NCBI RefSeq assembly: GCF_001886855.1
Contig: NZ_CP013197.1
Coordinates: 1,178,001 to 1,242,000, forward strand
Length of the DNA: 64,000 nt
Origin: Spiroplasma citri
GTDB taxonomy: Bacteria; Bacillota_I; Bacilli_A; Mycoplasmatales; Mycoplasmataceae
Direction: 5' to 3'
Shown here: in pieces, positions 2 to 23,170 of the stretch
Position numbering within the stretch: the first letter of the stretch is position 1
Layout of the letters: every line of letters starts with the position of its first letter
Program-made: the position numbers and the translations under genes
Notes under the pieces: generated by a model
Seen by the model: the letters and a program-made list of their open reading frames with translations, nothing else
What the model was told of the DNA's origin: nothing
Database searches by the model: none

Positions 2-412
2 GTTGTAAAAGCATATAGTCAAGAAAAGTCAAAAAATATTTATGACTTAAATATCAAAGCATATCGTTTTAGTGCAAATTGTACTGACCCCATTGTTAAA
101 GTTGGTCTTATTGAAATGTGTGAAATGGAATTAATTGCTTCATTAAAAGGTACAAAACATAATTTTATGTTTAATAATAAAGATGGTTATTTAATGGGGG
201 TTAGCATTGATAGTGATTGAAATAAAGATTATTTTTGGCAAATGGAAGAATATGTCCCGTATGATAAAAAAATATTTCGGTTTTTTCATAAAATATCTGA
301 TTTAAATAGATACCGAATACGGAAAAAATACGATAAATACTTTAATTTAGGTAAACAAAGGTATATAAAAAAAAGTACCTTCCAAATGGAAAGTACCAAT
401 TGTGTAGCATAG
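2..412 (+). CDS. Rep, HUH rolling-circle replication protein, C-terminal part (unit 1)
   Basis: The reading frame is open from the window edge to TAG at 410, with TGA as Trp. The 136 residues match the C-terminal third of the Rep in the next two units, starting just after the tyrosine motif. The N-terminal half with the His-x-His motif lies outside the window, so whether this rep is intact cannot be judged. In the visible part there is no frameshift, unlike unit 2. The stop codon lies next to a hairpin whose loop matches the ORF2 leader hairpin. Confidence 0.85.
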
Positions 413-434
413 TTCCACTACGACCTATACCACA
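401..434 (+). promoter_or_regulatory. hairpin at the rep stop codon, loop core CCACTAC
   Basis: Stem TGTG[TA]GCATAG / CTATACCACA with a two-base TA bulge on the 5' side and one C-A mismatch. The loop holds TTCCACTACGA, the same 11 bases as in the ORF2 leader hairpin 200 bases downstream. The stem is built alike in units 2 and 3 but the loop differs. Candidate Rep nick or recognition site, or an RNA operator. Confidence 0.6.
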
Positions 435-531: not shown

Positions 532-559
532 TTGACATATTGATTTTGTTGTGTAAAAT
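532..559 (+). promoter_or_regulatory. promoter of ORF2/late transcript (unit 1)
   Basis: TTGACA and TAAAAT with a 16-base spacer and an upstream TG before the -10. The same pair and spacing are found in units 2 and 3. The leader hairpin starts 56 bases after the -10 box in all three units. Confidence 0.75.
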
Positions 560-614: not shown

Positions 615-638
615 AAAGGTTTTCCACTACGAAACTTT
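615..638 (+). promoter_or_regulatory. ORF2 leader hairpin, loop core CCACTAC
   Basis: Stem AAAG[GT]TTTC / GAAACTTT with a two-base bulge in the 5' arm and loop CACTAC. It is preceded by the conserved block GTATTCAAACCAAAATAAAG and followed by TAAATATAAATAAATG. The same module is in the rep leader of units 2 and 3. The loop matches the hairpin at 401-434 of this unit only. Confidence 0.65.
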
Positions 639-3011: not shown

Positions 3012-4022
3012 ATGTTTAAAAATTATTTGAATTTATTTAGAAGACAAAAAAATATTAAGTTTTCTTATTGATATGTAAGTTGATTTATGGTAAATATTTT
3101 GTTTTATCTTTTTATTGTTTGTTTTAATTTACAGTTTATATATTTTAGTTCTACATCAGTTATAGATATTATCCTTTTTATTTTTTTAGTAATTTTTGAT
3201 ATTATCTTTTTTTGGTCTTTTTTTAGTGATATTTTTCAAACACGGAAATTAATTAAAATTGTTAAAAGTAGTCCAATATCAATTATTAACGGTCCTTTGG
3301 GTACTGGTAAAACTTTATTGATGACTTATTTATCGCAAATTGCTAAATTTGATAATGTTTATTCTAATTATTTTATTGATGATGAAAAAATTGGAGTTTT
3401 AGGTTTAAACCATTTAAATTTTAAAAATAAAAATTATAAAATACCGCCAAATGATAGTTTAATTTTATTTGATGAAATATTTTTATATATGAATGGTGCT
3501 AAACCGGAAGAAAATAATAAAAAGTTTAGTGGTTTAATTCCATATTTTTTATTATGTCGTCAGTTTGATAATAACATTGTTTTTGCTGGACAACGAATTA
3601 ATCAGAATTGGGTTGAATATAGAGAAATTGCTAATATGATTATTGTTCCTATGCAATGTATTCCACCTAGTATATTTTTTCCTTATTTTAAAATGAAAAT
3701 AGGTTTTTTTGATGATTTAGATGATTATTTAGTATGAAAAACTGAAACGGTTAAACGAACAGCAAACGGAAAAAGAGTTCGTAAAAAATCTAATAAAGAT
3801 ATTGGTATTAATTTTGTTAAGATAAAAATTCCTTTATCTATTGCAATGCAATATGATAGTAAATATTTAAAGTTTGTACGTGATTTAAAAAATGATAAAG
3901 TACCAAGTTATACTAAGCAAAATTGACCTAGTATTGTTAAAAAAGATATTACGCTTAATGAATTACGAGAGATGGGAATGGAACATTTATTAAAGAATTT
4001 AGGAGAGTTAGAAAATGATTAA
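3012..4022 (+). CDS. Zot-like assembly ATPase (filamentous phage morphogenesis)
   Basis: 336 residues with TGA at 3735 as Trp. An N-terminal membrane region (about 25-60) is followed by a P-loop GPLGTGKT at 94-101 and Walker B SLILFDE with D154/E155, then FAGQRINQNWVEYRE typical of the Zot/gene I family, which drives phage assembly and extrusion at the membrane. The ATG at 3012 is used because it follows the previous gene closely and adds the basic stretch FRRQKN. The C-terminal part is basic. Intact in units 1 and 2, frameshifted and cut in unit 3. Confidence 0.85.
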
Positions 4023-4377
4023 TTTACTTGCTAATGATGTATGAAATGATGCCATTAATGTTGTAGTTGATATTTTTATGAAAATAATGGATTGAATGTG
4101 AGCATTAAAATTACCAGGTACAAATATTCCTTTATTTGTAATTTGAGTAATTGGTGGTGTTATAAATGTTATCTTTTTGTTAGTTAATAGTTCTCGTGGT
4201 TTAAGTTCAGTTTCTCGTGCAAGTTTAGAAGCAAGTTCTAATATTGCCAAAGGTGTTAAGGGTACTGTTTCATTTTCATATAAATCTGGTAAAAAAGTTG
4301 GTAATTATGTTGGTACTCGTTCAGCAAATAAAAAGGCAAGAATGTCAGCAAAAATAAATAAGGAGAATGATAAATAA
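4015..4377 (+). CDS. membrane protein with basic tail (unit 1 tail variant)
   Basis: 120 residues; ATG overlaps the Zot stop. One or two membrane helices (about 14-60), then a basic Ser-rich tail. Up to about residue 80 it matches the unit 2 protein; after that the tails are unrelated: here it ends SYKSGKKVGNYVG...KINKENDK, while unit 2 and the type-II phage share another tail. This is a mosaic switch at a domain border. Probably a structural or assembly protein whose tail faces the cytoplasm or DNA. Confidence 0.65.
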
Positions 4378-6057: not shown

Positions 6058-6141
6058 AAGTAAGGTGGTGTGGTGGTTTATCCACGCACCACCTTACTTA
6101 AAGGGGTAAAAGTCGCGGAGCGACTTAGGGGCGAAGCCCCT
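6058..6141 (+). promoter_or_regulatory. array of three GC-rich hairpins after the late operon
   Basis: Hairpin 1: AAGTAAGGTGGTG / CACCACCTTACTT, 13 pairs. Hairpin 2: AAGTCGC / GCGACTT, loop GGA. Hairpin 3: AGGGGC / GCCCCT, loop GAA. This is the most GC-rich spot of the unit. Unit 2 keeps all three, with changed triloops (GAA, GGA) and a wobble pair. Could be the transcription end, the complementary-strand origin or the packaging signal; filamentous phages use hairpins for all three. Confidence 0.7.
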
Positions 6142-6177
6142 TTCCTTGATTAAGTAACACAACGGAAGAAACGAAAA

Positions 6178-6232: not shown

Positions 6233-6961
6233 ATGAAAAATAAAATATTTTTAAAAAAGAAAAAATGAATAATTTTAATTTGATTATTAAGTTTTTATAC
6301 TTTATCAGTAAAATTTTGAAAAGGTGACGATAATAATGGAAATTATTGAATTTATATGATTGAAATTTTAAGATGATTTAGTGTTTGAGCGACTGTTATT
6401 GCTTTTATTTGAAGTTCATTAAATTTATTTATTTTAAATAATAAAATATATATTAATTGAATTAATAGTTATAATTTTAAAATTTATTCCTCTGTTTATA
6501 ATATAATGGCCGGTATTGTTTTTTGATGTGGAATATTTACTTATGGTTGAAATGATTATATATTTGAGAGGTTAAAATATCCATTATCTTTTTCTGTTAC
6601 TTTATTAGGACACTTAGTTATTCCTATTTTGTTAGCATTTTATTCAATTATTTATTCCGATTACTATGTAATAAACAAAAAATATTATAAAAAAGATTTT
6701 TTTCTAGTATTAGTAGTCCCTAGTTTATATTATTTGTGAATGTTAGTTCGTTCATTTTATTTAATAAAATATATATATAATGGAATTAATCTAAGTAAGC
6801 ATTTAAATTATATCTCACCTTATTGATTTCTTTCTTGATTTATTTATGGTTGAGGTTATTGGTTTGGCGCTATATTATTTTTTATGATTATTACTTTAAT
6901 TTTAACTTTTATTCTTAATATAATTAATAATTATTATATTTTAAAAAAAAATATTTTATAG
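6233..6961 (+). CDS. cargo membrane protein of unit 1 (six-helix type)
   Basis: 242 residues, ATG after AAGGTGAATT, about ten TGA-coded Trp. Around six membrane helices. It shares small signatures with two chromosomal proteins of this window (23178 and 49860): a Ser/Thr-x-x-Asn motif early (WSSLN) and a His followed by Pro in a later helix (GHLVIP). This points to a common membrane family, perhaps the Pr6Pr/FAR-17a-like group. It stands in the cargo slot, where unit 2 has an unrelated secreted protein. Likely a host-derived gene; superinfection exclusion or host-surface change is a guess. Confidence 0.6.
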
Positions 6962-7036
6962 GATTTTTAAAATATTTATTAATTAAATTAACTAGTATAA
7001 CTGTAATAAACATCAACAATAATAAAAATTTAAAAA

Positions 7037-7064
7037 TTAACAATAAACAAGAAATAAATATAAT
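7037..7064 (+). promoter_or_regulatory. rep promoter (unit 2)
   Basis: TTAACA and TATAAT with a 16-base spacer, matching TTGACA-16-TATAAT at the same place in unit 3 (14343) and in the remnant at 21860. The leader hairpin starts 56 bases after the -10 box. Confidence 0.65.
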
Positions 7065-7076
7065 TAATTTAGAATA

Positions 7077-7165
7077 AAAAAAACATTTATCCGAATGTTT
7101 AATGTATTCAAACCAAAATAAAGGTTTTCAACCACGAAACTTTAAATATAAATAAATGTTTTTTT
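7077..7165 (+). promoter_or_regulatory. rep leader: outer stem with U-tract enclosing variable-loop hairpin
   Basis: AAAAAAACATTTAT (7077-7090) pairs perfectly with ATAAATGTTTTTTT (7152-7165). Inside lies the bulged hairpin 7120-7143, loop AACCAC. A rival local hairpin AACATT...AATGTT uses the 5' arm of the outer stem. The U-rich 3' side makes the outer stem look like an intrinsic terminator, so the leader could work as an attenuator switched by a ligand of the inner loop. The same layout is in unit 3. Confidence 0.55.
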
Positions 7166-7192
7166 ATTTTTGTTTTAGAAAGGAAATAAAAA

Positions 7193-8201
7193 ATGAATGT
7201 AAATATTAATCCTTATAATCGTTTAACTGGTGAGATTTTATATCGACCATATATTGATAGTAGTAATTTTGTTAATCAAAAATATTATGTTAAAAAAGTA
7301 TATTATGGTCCTTATATCAAAACAATTGTATTACCCTTAGAATGTATTAATAAATTTGGCAAAGGAAACCCCACAGGTATTAAGAATACTGGTGAAAATG
7401 AAACTAAACTATTAAATAGTCGTGTTCGTTCCCAAGCAAATTGTATTCGCAAAGCAATTCATAATTTTAGTGGTTGTAAAAATTTAGGTTTTACAACTTT
7501 AACTTATGCTGAAAATATGCAAGATATTAAAAAAGCAAATTATCAATTTAATTTATTTATTAAAAAAATAAAGTATCACTTTTCTAAATATAAAAAGAAT
7601 AAATATGAAAATTTAAAATATTTAGTTGCTTATGAATATCAAAATCGCGGAGCAGTTCACTTTCATATTATATTTAGTGAATATATCCCTAATAAATTAA
7701 TAAGAAAGTATTGACCTTATGGATATAATAAAAATTTACCAGTTGAAACCGGTACAAATGAATTTGTTAGTAAATATGTTGCTAAATATATTGTAAAAGC
7801 ACAAAGTGAAGAAAAAAAGTAAAAATATTTATGATTTAAATACCAAAGCATATCGTTTTAGTGCAAATTGTACTGACCCTATTGTTAAAGTTGGTGTTAT
7901 TGAGATGTGTGAAATGGAATTAATTGCTTCATTAAAAGGAACAAAACATAATTTTATGTTTAATAATAAAGATGGTTATTTAATGGGTGTTAGCATTGAT
8001 AGTGATTGAAATAAAGATTATTTTTGACAAATGGAAGAATATGTTCCGTATGATAAAAAAATATTTCGGTTTTTTCATAAAATATCTGATTTAGATAGAT
8101 ACCGAATACGTAAAAAATATGATAAATATCTTAATTTAGGTAAACAAAGGTACATTAAAAAAAGTACCTTCCAATTGGAAAGTACTCCTTGTGTAGCATA
8201 G
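7193..8201 (+). pseudogene. Rep, HUH rolling-circle replication protein, frameshifted (unit 2)
   Basis: Starts MNVNINPYNRLTGEILYRPY after AGAAAGGAAAT. The HUH motif is AVHFHIIF (about residues 150-157) and the tyrosine motif FVSKYVAKYIVKA follows. One extra A in a run near 7811-7818 shifts the frame, so the first part stops at 7820 just after the tyrosine motif; the C-terminal 130 residues are open in the new frame to 8201. The N-terminal product would still hold all catalytic motifs. Rep opens the phage origin by nicking and covalent attachment. A sequencing slip in the A-run is possible. Confidence 0.8.
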
Positions 8202-8223
8202 TTCAACCACGACCTATACCACA
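8190..8223 (+). promoter_or_regulatory. hairpin at rep stop, loop core CAACCAC (unit 2)
   Basis: Same stem as 401-434 in unit 1; the loop holds TTCAACCACGA, identical to the loop segment in both leader hairpins of this unit (7127-7137 and 8421-8431) and different from unit 1 and unit 3. Confidence 0.6.
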
Positions 8224-8330
8224 GTTTCCATTATATATATATATATATATATATGCAAGAGATTAAGTTTAATAATTTAATAAATTTAAAAAATTATGGA
8301 ATTAATATTTTTTATTTTAAGTTATATTAA

Positions 8331-8358
8331 TTGACATATTTATTTTGTTATGTAAAAT
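8331..8358 (+). promoter_or_regulatory. ORF2 promoter (unit 2)
   Basis: TTGACA, 16-base spacer, TAAAAT, as in units 1 and 3. Confidence 0.75.
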
Positions 8359-8413
8359 TAAATTAGAATATTATATATAACATTTAGTTATATTTAAGTA
8401 TTCAAACCAAAAT

Positions 8414-8437
8414 AAAGGTTTTCAACCACGAAACTTT
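8414..8437 (+). promoter_or_regulatory. ORF2 leader hairpin, loop core CAACCAC (unit 2)
   Basis: Stem AAAG[GT]TTTC / GAAACTTT with loop AACCAC, 56 bases after the -10 box. Identical to the rep leader hairpin of the same unit at 7120-7143. Confidence 0.65.
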
Positions 8438-8597
8438 AAATATAAGTAAATGTTTTTATTTTGCATTTATATTTACATTCATTTTGTATTAATTTTTTAT
8501 TAAATTAGTTTTTATTTTTTAACATTTATCTTATTTAAAGTTTTAAACCTTGTGAAACCTTTATTTACATATATGTAAATGAAAGGAATTTTTAGTT

Positions 8598-8912
8598 ATG
8601 TTTAAAGTTTATTTAAGTGATATTAAGTTTAATCAAGTTATTAAAGATAAGTCAAATAAAGATAATTATTATGATGTATATACATTTTTACGAGTTGAAG
8701 GTAAAAAAATAATTGGTAAAGAATACCAAGATAAATGAGTTCGTAAAGATAGTGAATTTCAAAATAGTTTGCCCGAAATGATTGAAGGTAGTTTTTACAA
8801 TGTAGAAATTGGTTTTAATGGTAAGATATCAAAAATATTACCTTATGAAACCGAACAAGATTTTATTAATAAATATTCTAATAGTTCAGCAATAACAGAA
8901 AGCAATAATTAA
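8598..8912 (+). CDS. small phage protein ORF2 (unit 2)
   Basis: 104 residues, nearly the same as the unit 1 protein apart from a three-residue shorter acidic stretch near residue 85 (LPYETEQDF). Ribosome site GAAAGGAATT. No rep fragment follows here, so the Cys-rich gene starts right after the stop, which shows that the extra rep copy in unit 1 is an insertion. Confidence 0.7.
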
Positions 8913-13526: not shown

Positions 13527-13610
13527 AAGTAAGGTGGTGTTGTGGTTTATCCACGCACCACCTTACTTAAAGGGGTAAAAGTCGCGAAGCGATTTAGGGG
13601 CGGAGCCCCT
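13527..13610 (+). promoter_or_regulatory. array of three GC-rich hairpins (unit 2)
   Basis: Same three hairpins as 6058-6141. Stem 1 identical; stem 2 loop is GAA with one wobble pair (AAGTCGC / GCGATTT); stem 3 loop is GGA. The loops swapped between purines while stems held. Confidence 0.7.
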
Positions 13611-13647
13611 TTTCCTTGATTAAGTAACACAACGGAAGAAACGAAAA

Positions 13648-14342: not shown

Positions 14343-14370
14343 TTGACAATATTAAAATTAAAAATATAAT
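14343..14370 (+). promoter_or_regulatory. rep promoter (unit 3)
   Basis: TTGACA, 16-base spacer, TATAAT after the end of the unit 2 cargo gene; leader hairpin follows 57 bases after the -10. Confidence 0.75.
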
Positions 14371-14426: not shown

Positions 14427-14451
14427 AAATGGTTTCACTTCACGAAACTTT
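14427..14451 (+). promoter_or_regulatory. rep leader hairpin, loop core CACTTCAC (unit 3)
   Basis: Stem AAA[TG]GTTTC / GAAACTTT, loop ACTTCAC. The outer stem AAAAAAACATTTA / TAAATGTTTTTTT is also kept around it. Confidence 0.65.
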
Positions 14452-14501: not shown

Positions 14502-15485
14502 ATGAATGTAAATATAAATGCATATAATCGTTTAACAGGGGAAAATTTATATAAGCCCTATATAAACCCAGAATGTTATATTAATGAAAAATATTATGTT
14601 AAAAAAGTATATTATGGTCCTTATATTAAAACAGTTGTTTTACCGTTAAAGTGTATTAATAGTTTTGGCAAAGGTAATTCAACAGGAGTTAAAAATACGG
14701 GTGAAAATGAAACTAAATTATTAAATAGTCGTATTCGTTCTCAAAGAAATTGTATTCAAAAAGCAATTCATAACTTTAATGGTTGTCAAAATTTAGGTTT
14801 TACAACTTTAACTTATGCAGAAAATATGCAAGATATTAAAAAAGCAAATTATTAATTTAAATTGTTTATTCAAAAAATAAAGTATCATTTTTCTAAATAT
14901 AAAAAGAATAAATATGAAAATTTAAAATATTTAGTTGCTTATGAGTATCAAAAACTGGGAGCAGTCCATTTTCACATTATATTTAGTGAATATATCCCTA
15001 ATAAAATAATAAGAAAGTATTGACTTTATGGGTTAAATAAAAATTTACCGGTTAAAAGTGGTACAAATGAATTTGTTAGTAAATATGTTGCAAAATACAT
15101 TGTAAAAGCATACAGTCAACAAAAATCAAAAAATATTTATGACTTAAATATCAAAGCATATCGTTTTAGTGCAAATTGTACCGACCCAATTGTTAAGGTT
15201 GGAGTTATTGAAATGACAAAAGAAGAGTTAAAAATGGCATTATGTGGTGTAAAACATTTTTATATGTTTGCTGATAAACAAAAAAAGCATATGTTAGGTA
15301 TTAGTATTGATAGTGATTGACATAGTGATTATTTTTGACAAATGGAAGAATATGTTCCATATGATAAAAAAATATTCCGATTTTTTAATAAAATAACCGA
15401 TATTGGCATATATAAAGCCCGAAAAAAAATAGATAAATACCTTAATTTAGGTAAACAAAGGTACATTAAAAAAAGTACCTTCTAA
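14502..15485 (+). pseudogene. Rep, HUH protein, broken by a nonsense codon (unit 3)
   Basis: Opens like unit 2 Rep, but codon 118 is TAA where unit 2 has CAA (KKANYQF), ahead of the HUH motif, so the catalytic part is lost. The rest stays open and keeps AVHFHIIF and FVSKYVAKYIVKA, so the change looks recent. The C-terminal region differs from units 1 and 2 (EMTKEELKMALCGVKHFYMF) and ends earlier at KKSTF. Confidence 0.85.
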
Positions 15486-15500
15486 ATGGAAAGTACTAGT

Positions 15501-15532
15501 GTGTAATATAAGCACTTCACAACTTATATCAC
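15501..15532 (+). promoter_or_regulatory. hairpin after rep, loop core CACTTCAC (unit 3)
   Basis: Stem GTG[TA]ATATAAG / CTTATATCAC, again with a two-base TA bulge in the 5' arm; loop CACTTCACAA. The stem sequence differs from units 1 and 2 but pairs better, and the loop core equals the two leader hairpins of this unit. Confidence 0.6.
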
Positions 15533-15610
15533 ATAATTAATTAAAACAAAAAAACAAAAAAAAGCAAGTTGAGGATATAAATTTATTTTTTGCGTTTAAA
15601 TATGTAATAG

Positions 15611-15638
15611 TTGACATATTTATTTTGTTATGTAAAAT
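15611..15638 (+). promoter_or_regulatory. ORF2 promoter (unit 3)
   Basis: TTGACA, 16-base spacer, TAAAAT; the leader hairpin 15694-15718 starts 56 bases after the -10. Confidence 0.75.
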
Positions 15639-15693: not shown

Positions 15694-15718
15694 AAATGGT
15701 TTCACTTCACGAAACTTT
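15694..15718 (+). promoter_or_regulatory. ORF2 leader hairpin, loop core CACTTCAC (unit 3)
   Basis: Stem AAA[TG]GTTTC / GAAACTTT, loop ACTTCAC; identical to the rep leader hairpin at 14427. Confidence 0.65.
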
Positions 15719-15875
15719 AAATATAGGTAAATGTTTTTATTTTGCATTTATATTTATATTCATTTTTAATTATTATTTAAATTAGTTTTTATTTTTTAGC
15801 ATTTATGATTATTTAAAGTTTTAAACTATATGAAACCTTTATTTACTTAATTAAGTGAAGAAAGGAGTGCTTTAT

Positions 15876-16254
15876 ATGTATAAAGTATTATTAGCTCAAA
15901 TTGCTTTTAACCATCAAATGGATAGTAAAGAAAAAGATGGTGAAAAAAATGATAATAAAGGTTTATTTTTTGATATCTTTACCTTTATGCAACTTGATGA
16001 AGATGATATGCCAATTCCAGACGAATATATAATTTCGTGGGTTTGAAAAGAAAGTAAATTGGCTAATGAATTACCAGAAATGAAAAAAAGGTAATTATTA
16101 TTTAATTGATATTAAATTTCCGGTTGTCACTGATAGAAAAACGGGAAGAAAATATAACAAAGTAAGTGTTGTTAAAGTTGTTCCTTATGATAGACAACAA
16201 GATTTTATTAACAAATATTCTAATAATTCAGCAATAACAGAAAGCAATAGTTAA
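15876..16254 (+). pseudogene. diverged ORF2 protein, frameshifted (unit 3)
   Basis: Starts MYKVLLAQIAF after AAAGGAG, runs to a stop at 16092 after an A7 run (EMKKR). One A fewer gives a full protein of about 125 residues that ends QQDFINKYSNNSAITESNS, the tail shared with units 1 and 2. The N-terminal 100 residues differ strongly from those units, so unit 3 carries another ORF2 lineage along with its own hairpin loop. Confidence 0.75.
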
Positions 16255-21833: not shown

Positions 21834-21859
21834 TTTTAATAAATAAAATATATAGTAGA

Positions 21860-21887
21860 TTGACAATTAAAAAAGAAAAAATATAAT
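21860..21887 (+). promoter_or_regulatory. orphan plectrovirus rep promoter
   Basis: TTGACA, 16-base spacer, TATAAT followed by the start of the rep leader. The leader is cut within AAATGTT by the IS3-type element, so no rep follows. Confidence 0.7.
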
Positions 21888-21926
21888 ATAAATTAAGAAT
21901 AAAAAAGCATTTATTCAAATGTTGAA

Positions 21927-23170
21927 TTAGTCAAGAAAAGTAGACTAATAAAAAATGACTAAAGGTTTAGGTTCCTGTATTCAACAAAACTTAGACCTTT
22001 TAATTTTGATTGTGGTCTAAAATTTATTATAAAAATAAATATACTTAGGTAAATTACTTATAATTCATTTTGTAGTTCTCTTTTTTCTTGAAATTTAATT
22101 TAAAAATTCACTTTTCATTGTACCAAATCATGATTCAGTATGGGCATTATCATATGGATTATCTCATTTAGACATTGATATTTTAATTCCTAAATAATTG
22201 CAAAGTCTTTGATAATTTTGATTTGTCTAATGAAATCCTTGATCAGATTGTAAAATTCATGTTTTAGGTTTACCAGCTTTTATTCAAGCATTAATAATAT
22301 TTTTTAAAACAAAATTAGTACCTAAATTATTACTAATTTGATAGTCCAAAATTTGGTTATTATGAAAATCTTTGACAATTGATAAATAATAAGTTTTTTA
22401 TTAGTTAGCAAATATGTAATATCGGTTCCTAGTTTTTAATTAAGTTAAGTAGCCCTAAAGTTTTGACTCAATAAATTTTCATATCGAAAAGGCCCAGATG
22501 AAAGTTTATATTTGAATTTTTTAATTCTTTGAACAAATTTTAGATTCAAATATTTCATATATCTATATACCATATGGGCTTTTAAAGATAAATTATAGAT
22601 TTTATTAATTATTAAAGTTAGCATTTTATAACCATAAATTTTATTAAATTTCAAAAATGATATTTTAATTAATTTAGCTAATTTTGAATCTCACTTATTA
22701 AATTTTTGCATACCATTGTTAAATCACTTATAATATCCTGATTTAGAAATATTTAAAATGTGAGTTAAATATTTAATCGTGTATTTTTTCTTCAAGGACC
22801 AAACCGCTCAAAATTTCATTTTCTTCGATTTGGTTAAATACTTTTTTATATCTTGTATCATTTCTATATATTTAATTAGTTCCTCTTTACTCATACTATT
22901 AAAATCAATAGTTTTAGGTCGGGCTGGTCTACGATTTCCCTTTGACTGAGGACCCTTTCCAGGAATTAAATTATCTTCATTTGTGATTTTAATTCATCTG
23001 CTTAAAGTTTCCTTTGCAATAGTAAATTTTTTTATTGTATTCATATGCCTATTTTTATGATAGTATTTAATAATTTTTATTTTTTCTTCTTTTGTGTATC
23101 ATTTTCCAATAATAAAAGAACATCTCCTAATAAAATATTACACTCTTTTTAAGAGTTTACTTTATTATAG
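21927..23170 (-). mobile_element. IS3-family element, reverse orientation, decayed
   Basis: Terminal sequences TAGTCAAGAAAAGTAGACTA (left) and, inward from the right, TATAATAAAGTAAACTCTTA form imperfect inverted repeats. The reverse strand encodes an OrfA-like part (WYTKEEKIKIIKYYHKN, a helix-turn-helix) and an OrfB-like part (FLKFNKIYGYKMLTLIIN), with several stops and shifts; the start codon is ATT where the second copy has ATG. Inserted in the plectrovirus remnant on its left, and 8 bases from the stop of the gene on its right. Confidence 0.8.

Follow-up and report, generated by a model that had tools for sequence, protein, structure and literature searches.

Rolling-circle plectroviruses of Spiroplasma appear to encode a small antisense RNA that would act in trans and jointly repress rep and ORF2 by pairing with a leader common to both mRNAs. 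We place the probability of this reading, in which the RNA would serve copy control and probably superinfection immunity, at roughly 0.78 on the basis of sequence comparison. The original prediction had proposed that one attenuator-like leader placed on two promoters gives joint feedback control of Rep and ORF2. Joint control is strongly supported, but the mechanism was incomplete, in that the leader bears the bait of a putative phage-encoded antisense RNA. The bait is the leader's only variable part, 8-11 nt long, and each intact unit has exactly three copies of it, one in the leader of each gene and a third in a hairpin just 3' of rep.

Prophage units of the window

The window, the whole 64,000-nt stretch of DNA analyzed (G000:C1:1178001-1242000), is filled over its first ~18 kb by tandem plectrovirus prophages of the Spiroplasma type, the reading frames of which were translated with UGA as tryptophan. 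The nearest named phage was SVGII3 (Virgulavirus), with a Rep 91% identical, followed by SVTS2 (Suturavirus) at 51%. Features of the 3 units are listed in Table 1. The rep gene of unit 2 is split into ORFs at 7193-7822 and 7806-8201, the frame being broken near 7805-7822 by a frameshift, and rep of unit 3 (14502-15485) is interrupted near 14855, where a stop occurs. Neither of the two rep copies contained entirely in the window has an unbroken frame; the leaders and small-RNA genes of both units remain intact. In unit 1, ORF2 is followed by a second, shorter HUH Rep-like ORF (1133-1630; PF23343, E=1.2e-12), which is nearer to the SVTS2 type.

ORF2 had no match in a Pfam search and matched only a group of unknown function in PHROG. 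Its AlphaFold model was poor (mean pLDDT 52.8), and neither a fold search nor a profile search of PDB sequences gave a convincing match. A role for ORF2 as a single-stranded DNA-binding protein was considered and was unsupported by the Pfam, PHROG, fold, or PDB-sequence profile searches. Unit 3 has a frameshifted ORF2 (15855-16254) that represents a second, divergent type (MYKVLLAQ..., ~50% identical); both ORF2 types are served by one leader and small-RNA system.

Strong conserved hairpins were observed 3' of ORF1 at 6060-6150 and 13530-13612, with arms AAGGTGGTG...CACCACCTT and AGTCGCGGAGCGACT...GGGGCGAAGCCCC. These are candidate replication or packaging signals, and a stem-loop is annotated at the equivalent position of SVTS2 (L032 2190-2265). 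Beyond the prophage array, a rep-type promoter and the start of a leader, both degenerate (TTGACA...TATAAT, GCATTTATTCAAATGTT), lie at 21844-21960 with no bait and no rep.

Table 1. Positions of predicted features in the window, by prophage unit
Feature	Position	Strand	Description or basis
Unit 1 antisense small RNA	367..434	-	sequence and covariance-model match
Unit 1 ORF2 promoter	532..559	+	sequence
Unit 1 bait, ORF2 leader	622..632	+	TTCCACTACGA; matches small-RNA loop at 413-423
Unit 2 rep promoter	7037..7064	+	TTAACA-16-TATAAT; 11/12 consensus positions
Unit 2 rep leader core	7077..7165	+	outer stem arms 7077-7090 and 7152-7165
Unit 2 rival 5' hairpin (AACATT/AATGTT)	7081..7100	+	stem invariant, loop variable across rep leaders
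Unit 2 first leader hairpin hp1 (AAACC/GGTTT)	7110..7127	+	consensus structure; compensatory changes in SVTS2-like clade
Unit 2 bait, rep leader	7127..7137	+	TTCAACCACGA; identical to 8202-8212 and 8421-8431
Unit 2 rep	7193..8201	+	HUH rolling-circle initiator; PF23343 E=4.5e-18, phrog_3419
Unit 2 antisense small RNA	8157..8223	-	hairpin complementary to bait, then intrinsic terminator with U7; covariance-model match E=3.6e-11
Unit 2 small-RNA recognition loop	8202..8212	-	UCGUGGUUGAA; 11 contiguous pairs with both unit 2 leaders
Unit 2 small-RNA promoter	8230..8258	-	TTGCAT-17-TATAAT, 6 nt ahead of hairpin
Unit 2 ORF2 promoter	8331..8358	+	TTGACA-16-TAAAAT; 11/12 consensus positions
Unit 2 ORF2 leader core	8379..8457	+	comparison with other leaders
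Unit 2 bait, ORF2 leader	8421..8431	+	TTCAACCACGA
Unit 2 anti-leader (inverted near-copy of leader), ORF2 5' UTR	8521..8568	+	sequence
Unit 2 hairpin able to cover ORF2 Shine-Dalgarno (CCTTT/AAAGG)	8558..8586	+	sequence and folding
Unit 2 ORF2	8598..8912	+	ORF C of SVGII3 and SVTS2, 104 aa
Unit 3 rep promoter	14343..14370	+	TTGACA-16-TATAAT; sequence
Unit 3 bait, rep leader	14436..14443	+	CACTTCAC
Unit 3 antisense small RNA	15468..15533	-	sequence and covariance-model match; rep and ORF2 of this unit broken
Unit 3 ORF2 promoter	15611..15638	+	sequence
Unit 3 bait, ORF2 leader	15703..15710	+	CACTTCAC

Matched sites and the predicted small-RNA gene

The bait of unit 2, TTCAACCACGA, was found at 7127, 8202, and 8421, with no further copy in the window. 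Units 1 and 3 had the same triple pattern with other sequences. The host genome and four related genomes, together with SVGII3 and SVTS2, were then used as sources of units; all three sites were present in 20 distinct units, which belong to two phage clades. In 18 of these, the loop of the hairpin 3' of rep pairs over 10-11 contiguous nt with both of its own leaders; the 2 units with no full match are decayed or mixed. Mean loop-leader pairing was -15.3 kcal/mol for cognate combinations vs. -6.3 kcal/mol for non-cognate combinations, and the best target of a loop was its own ORF2 leader in 20/20 units and its own rep leader in 18/20. All three sites differ together from phage to phage. Differences within a unit were few (L076, L078, L090, and the second L098).

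Matched copies could also arise in the absence of a regulatory RNA if recombination homogenized the sites, or if the sites themselves served as signals for recombination or packaging. Entire modules of hp1 plus bait have been swapped between units, and the three direct repeats in each genome could recombine. However, the two leaders within L042 and L105 have different hp1 modules but an identical bait, the differences within the four units named above all preserve pairing through G-U, and recombination leaves the strand-specific hairpin, the terminator, and the promoter spacing unaccounted for. We consider this explanation extremely unlikely.

The third copy of the bait belongs to a predicted RNA of ~65-67 nt, encoded just 3' of rep and previously unannotated. 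Its gene consists of a promoter (TTG[CT][AT]T, 16-17 nt, T[AT]TAAT), 5-6 nt, a 10-pair hairpin carrying the recognition loop, and an intrinsic terminator with a U-run. The 5-6 nt between the -10 box and the hairpin fits the usual spacing in mollicutes, in which -10 boxes lie ~6 nt before the start; a TTGACA -35 box is seen in experimentally mapped S. melliferum promoters (PMC5138195). The -35 box of the small-RNA gene is weak, with TTG only, and the small-RNA promoter was not listed by a promoter scan of the region. Depending on the unit, the promoter spacer (e.g., 8236-8252; L032 near 3735-3760) is an AT repeat or a homopolymer T-tract, and its length is 16-17 nt in most units. In SVTS2 and several decayed copies it is 6-12 nt, from which a poor promoter is expected. 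This difference in length could mean slippage (phase variation) or, in old records, sequencing error.

Comparison of loci supported an RNA fold. In the small-RNA hairpin, 98.7% of cells were paired, and 31 cells had double changes compared to a shuffle mean of 11.3, a count reached in 0 of 500 shuffles. Wobble pairs read on the minus strand were 37 G-U vs. 1 A-C in the hairpin and 16 vs. 1 in the terminator, and the minus strand folded more stably than the plus strand in 28 of 28 cases. Wobble pairs in the leaders of the SVTS2-like clade agree with the plus strand as RNA. The G-U pairs therefore assign the RNA strand as minus for the small RNA and plus for the leaders. A search of 6900-8700 against Rfam gave no family above its gathering score, and weak matches to Histone3 and mir-204 were attributed to chance. 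Taken together, these data support the predicted RNA gene, its strand, the matched triple, its specificity, and its conservation, all at the level of sequence.

Searching 60 genomes of the family with a covariance model of the small RNA gave 34 loci in 5 genomes, all of which have this Rep type. Two of the loci, L130 and L137, were new and found blind by the model, and both match their own leaders. In a third clade (G040; Rep ~50% identical), checked afterwards, 4/4 units matched; each had exactly three copies of a unit-specific 8-mer, a minus-strand hairpin, and a T-tract upstream, and the order of the RNA gene and the second leader was reversed in two units. The element was absent from the transposase-type phages R8A2B and C74, which have no HUH Rep. 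Two types of ORF C, scanned against viral contigs, gave no match.

The absence from R8A2B and C74 would also be expected if the three sites, all of which flank or precede rep, were DNA or RNA binding sites of Rep or ORF2, the variable sequence being a determinant of protein specificity as iterons are for Rep. Two pairs of prophages argue against such sites. All three sites are replaced between the adjacent prophages L034 and L033, yet residues 1-298 of Rep have just 2 substitutions and ORF2 has a single one. Residues 299-336 of Rep, whose codons extend into the small-RNA gene, differ at 11 positions in this pair, so it is not decisive alone. The loops of L089 and L090 also differ, with 6 changes in 309 Rep residues, none of them in the last 50, and 2 changes in ORF2. 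Recognition by protein is quite unlikely given near-identical Rep and ORF2 with all three sites different, and it would not explain why the G-U pairs of the small RNA and those of the leaders lie on opposite strands, or the promoter and terminator around the third site.

Leader structure and possible routes of control

The rep and ORF2 promoters of unit 2 were the two top sigma-70 matches in a scan of the region (tied), and these promoters and a common leader block were present at both genes where the original prediction had placed them. The distance it gave from the -10 box to the variable-loop hairpin, 56 or 57 bases with the hairpin as drawn there, was confirmed at ~56 nt. The interval that separates the end of the -10 box from the first hairpin (AAACC...GGTTT) measured 45 nt (unit 2) and 46 nt (unit 3) for rep and 45 nt for ORF2 in units 2 and 3. 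The same layout was seen in the rep leader of unit 1, which is located just beyond the window (G000:C1:1177234-1177404).

The arms of the outer stem, AAAAAAACATTTAT and ATAAATGTTTTTTT, are complementary over 14 bp with no mismatch, as had been claimed. Starts of 14-nt inverted repeats at the outer-stem spacing numbered 35 in the window compared to 0-2 in Markov-1 random windows, a count to which one long hairpin can contribute several starts. Conservation of the stem across 23 leaders is a stronger argument than this chance count. The stem had also been described as terminator-like. A U-rich run does follow it (UUUUUUUAUUUUUG), but it is not a canonical intrinsic terminator because it has just one G-C pair, and a terminator scan of the region did not call it. 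The rival hairpin borrows the 5' arm of the outer stem as described, with AACATT at 7082-7087 pairing with AATGTT at 7094-7099. It is invariant in clade 1 and restricted to rep leaders; AACATTTAGTT stands at its place in ORF2 leaders.

In the SVTS2-like clade, the leader consensus is a long stem (outer plus middle) capped by the small hairpin hp1, with the 8-nt bait bulging out next to it. Of the cells in this structure, 98.9% were paired, compared to at most 54% in slid versions; 5 pairs had double changes, and double-change cells numbered 20 vs. 7.3 in shuffles. Compensatory changes in the outer stem, the covariation on which the original prediction depended, were seen in this clade. The leader of the SVGII3-like clade is almost invariant outside the hypervariable bait, so its stems gain or lose no support there.

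Attenuation in cis alone, with the outer stem and U-run halting transcription and the rival hairpin preventing this, is very unlikely to be the whole function of the leader. It cannot account for 8-11 nt co-varying at three places, one of which is outside both leaders, and the rival hairpin is missing from ORF2 leaders. In its favor, the outer stem and the rival hairpin are real and conserved, and the SVTS2-like clade shows covariation of the outer stem; that stem is not G-C rich, however, and the 3' arm in the L095 rep leader includes the Shine-Dalgarno sequence, which points to translation.

Under control by the antisense RNA, the small RNA would be produced in proportion to phage DNA copy number, and its loop would pair over 10-11 nt with single-stranded bait near the 5' ends of the rep and ORF2 mRNAs. 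The bait would be held in the conserved stem structure, and this loop-to-bulge pairing would alter the fold of both leaders. Pairing with nascent or finished leaders would lower Rep and ORF2 synthesis together. One route may be occlusion of the Shine-Dalgarno sequence, which would involve the outer-stem 3' arm in L095 rep and, in ORF2, the anti-leader that adjoins the Shine-Dalgarno hairpin; the other may be termination at the outer stem and U-run. We infer the transcription of the small RNA, the repression, its level (translation or transcription), and the immunity discussed below.

When the bait was blocked in folding, Shine-Dalgarno exposure changed little. The change was clearest in one ORF2 type (0.2 to 0.1) and nil in most rep leaders. 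Because folding shifts this exposure only slightly, a translational switch in the ORF2 5' UTR between the anti-leader and the Shine-Dalgarno hairpin is something we infer as plausible and do not claim further. The 5' UTR of SVTS2 ORF C has a counterpart of the anti-leader with a different sequence (L032 near 3970-4030); an anti-leader beside a Shine-Dalgarno hairpin was thus observed in the ORF2 5' UTR of two clades, with differing sequences.

Folding does not fix the direction of control, and an antisense RNA could instead activate its targets, or the leaders could titrate the RNA. Activation or titration is unlikely, as repression is the effect of the known antisense RNAs that target replication-initiator mRNAs (PMC4485353) and the C4 RNA of P1/P7 represses ant (PMC12197685).

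Possible immunity types and known antisense systems

Because bait and loop sequences vary between phages, the RNA of a resident prophage is expected to act solely on phages bearing the matching bait, which would provide both copy control and superinfection immunity to the same type. We give roughly even odds to the further proposal that the hypervariable RNA loop defines immunity (incompatibility) types among the rolling-circle plectroviruses of Spiroplasma. The antisense RNA would silence Rep and ORF2 in all phages that share its bait, resident prophages would protect the host even when decayed to the RNA gene only, and escape would take a joint change of loop and bait. The host genome has eight small RNAs with eight different loops, and an intact RNA gene is retained in several decayed units (unit 3 of the window; L087). 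Eight distinct loops and RNA genes that survive decay are, we suggest, the pattern that type-specific immunity would leave. Other genomes, however, carry duplicate loops (L076 = L078; L082 = L085). Resistance of S. citri to SVTS2 was reported in association with integration of viral DNA (Sha et al. 1995, cited in PMC8140453).

Among the closest known systems are the plasmid copy-control RNAs (ColE1 RNAI, R1 CopA, the pT181 and pIP501 antisense RNAs, and pMV158 RNAII). Like these, the predicted RNA is small and structured, has its own promoter and terminator, and has a loop complementary to the leader of an initiator mRNA. In the plasmids the loop sets specificity, and loop changes create new incompatibility groups (PMC4485353). 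Plasmid antisense RNAs are transcribed opposite their target, and target and antisense thus change together automatically. In contrast, the phage RNA gene lies ~1.1 kb from one target (the rep leader) and ~0.2 kb from the other, its complementarity is just 10-11 nt, it has two target mRNAs, and three sites must change together. It falls outside the cis-encoded class because it is encoded away from its targets.

The C4 RNA of P1/P7 and the CI RNA of satellite P4 are cut from the leader of the transcript that they control. CI RNA pairs through seqA, seqB, and seqC, and variation in these gives heteroimmunity. The Spiroplasma RNA resembles both in being a short phage RNA with exposed sequences that would pair, in a type-specific manner, with more than one short site in phage mRNA. 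Pairing at short sites in phage mRNA is also known for C4, where variation gives heteroimmunity (PMC12197685). Unlike C4 and CI, the Spiroplasma RNA belongs to a filamentous phage (Plectroviridae) and has its own opposite-strand promoter, which puts it outside their class, and its own terminator.

In the Ff phages, which are likewise filamentous, gene V protein (a single-stranded DNA-binding protein) represses gene II mRNA. The Spiroplasma phages would share with Ff the post-transcriptional control of a rolling-circle initiator at its mRNA leader; the repressor of Ff is a protein, and the sequence evidence here points to RNA. Searches of open-access literature found no description of an antisense RNA in plectroviruses or inoviruses, or of RNA-based control of replication or immunity in filamentous phages, which is not proof of novelty.

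A separate RNA lock and key appears to exist for every phage type, restricting replication of that phage and probably excluding others of its own kind. The concerted change of three separate sites presents an evolutionary puzzle, and the bait offers a short sequence by which phage immunity types could be read from genomes.
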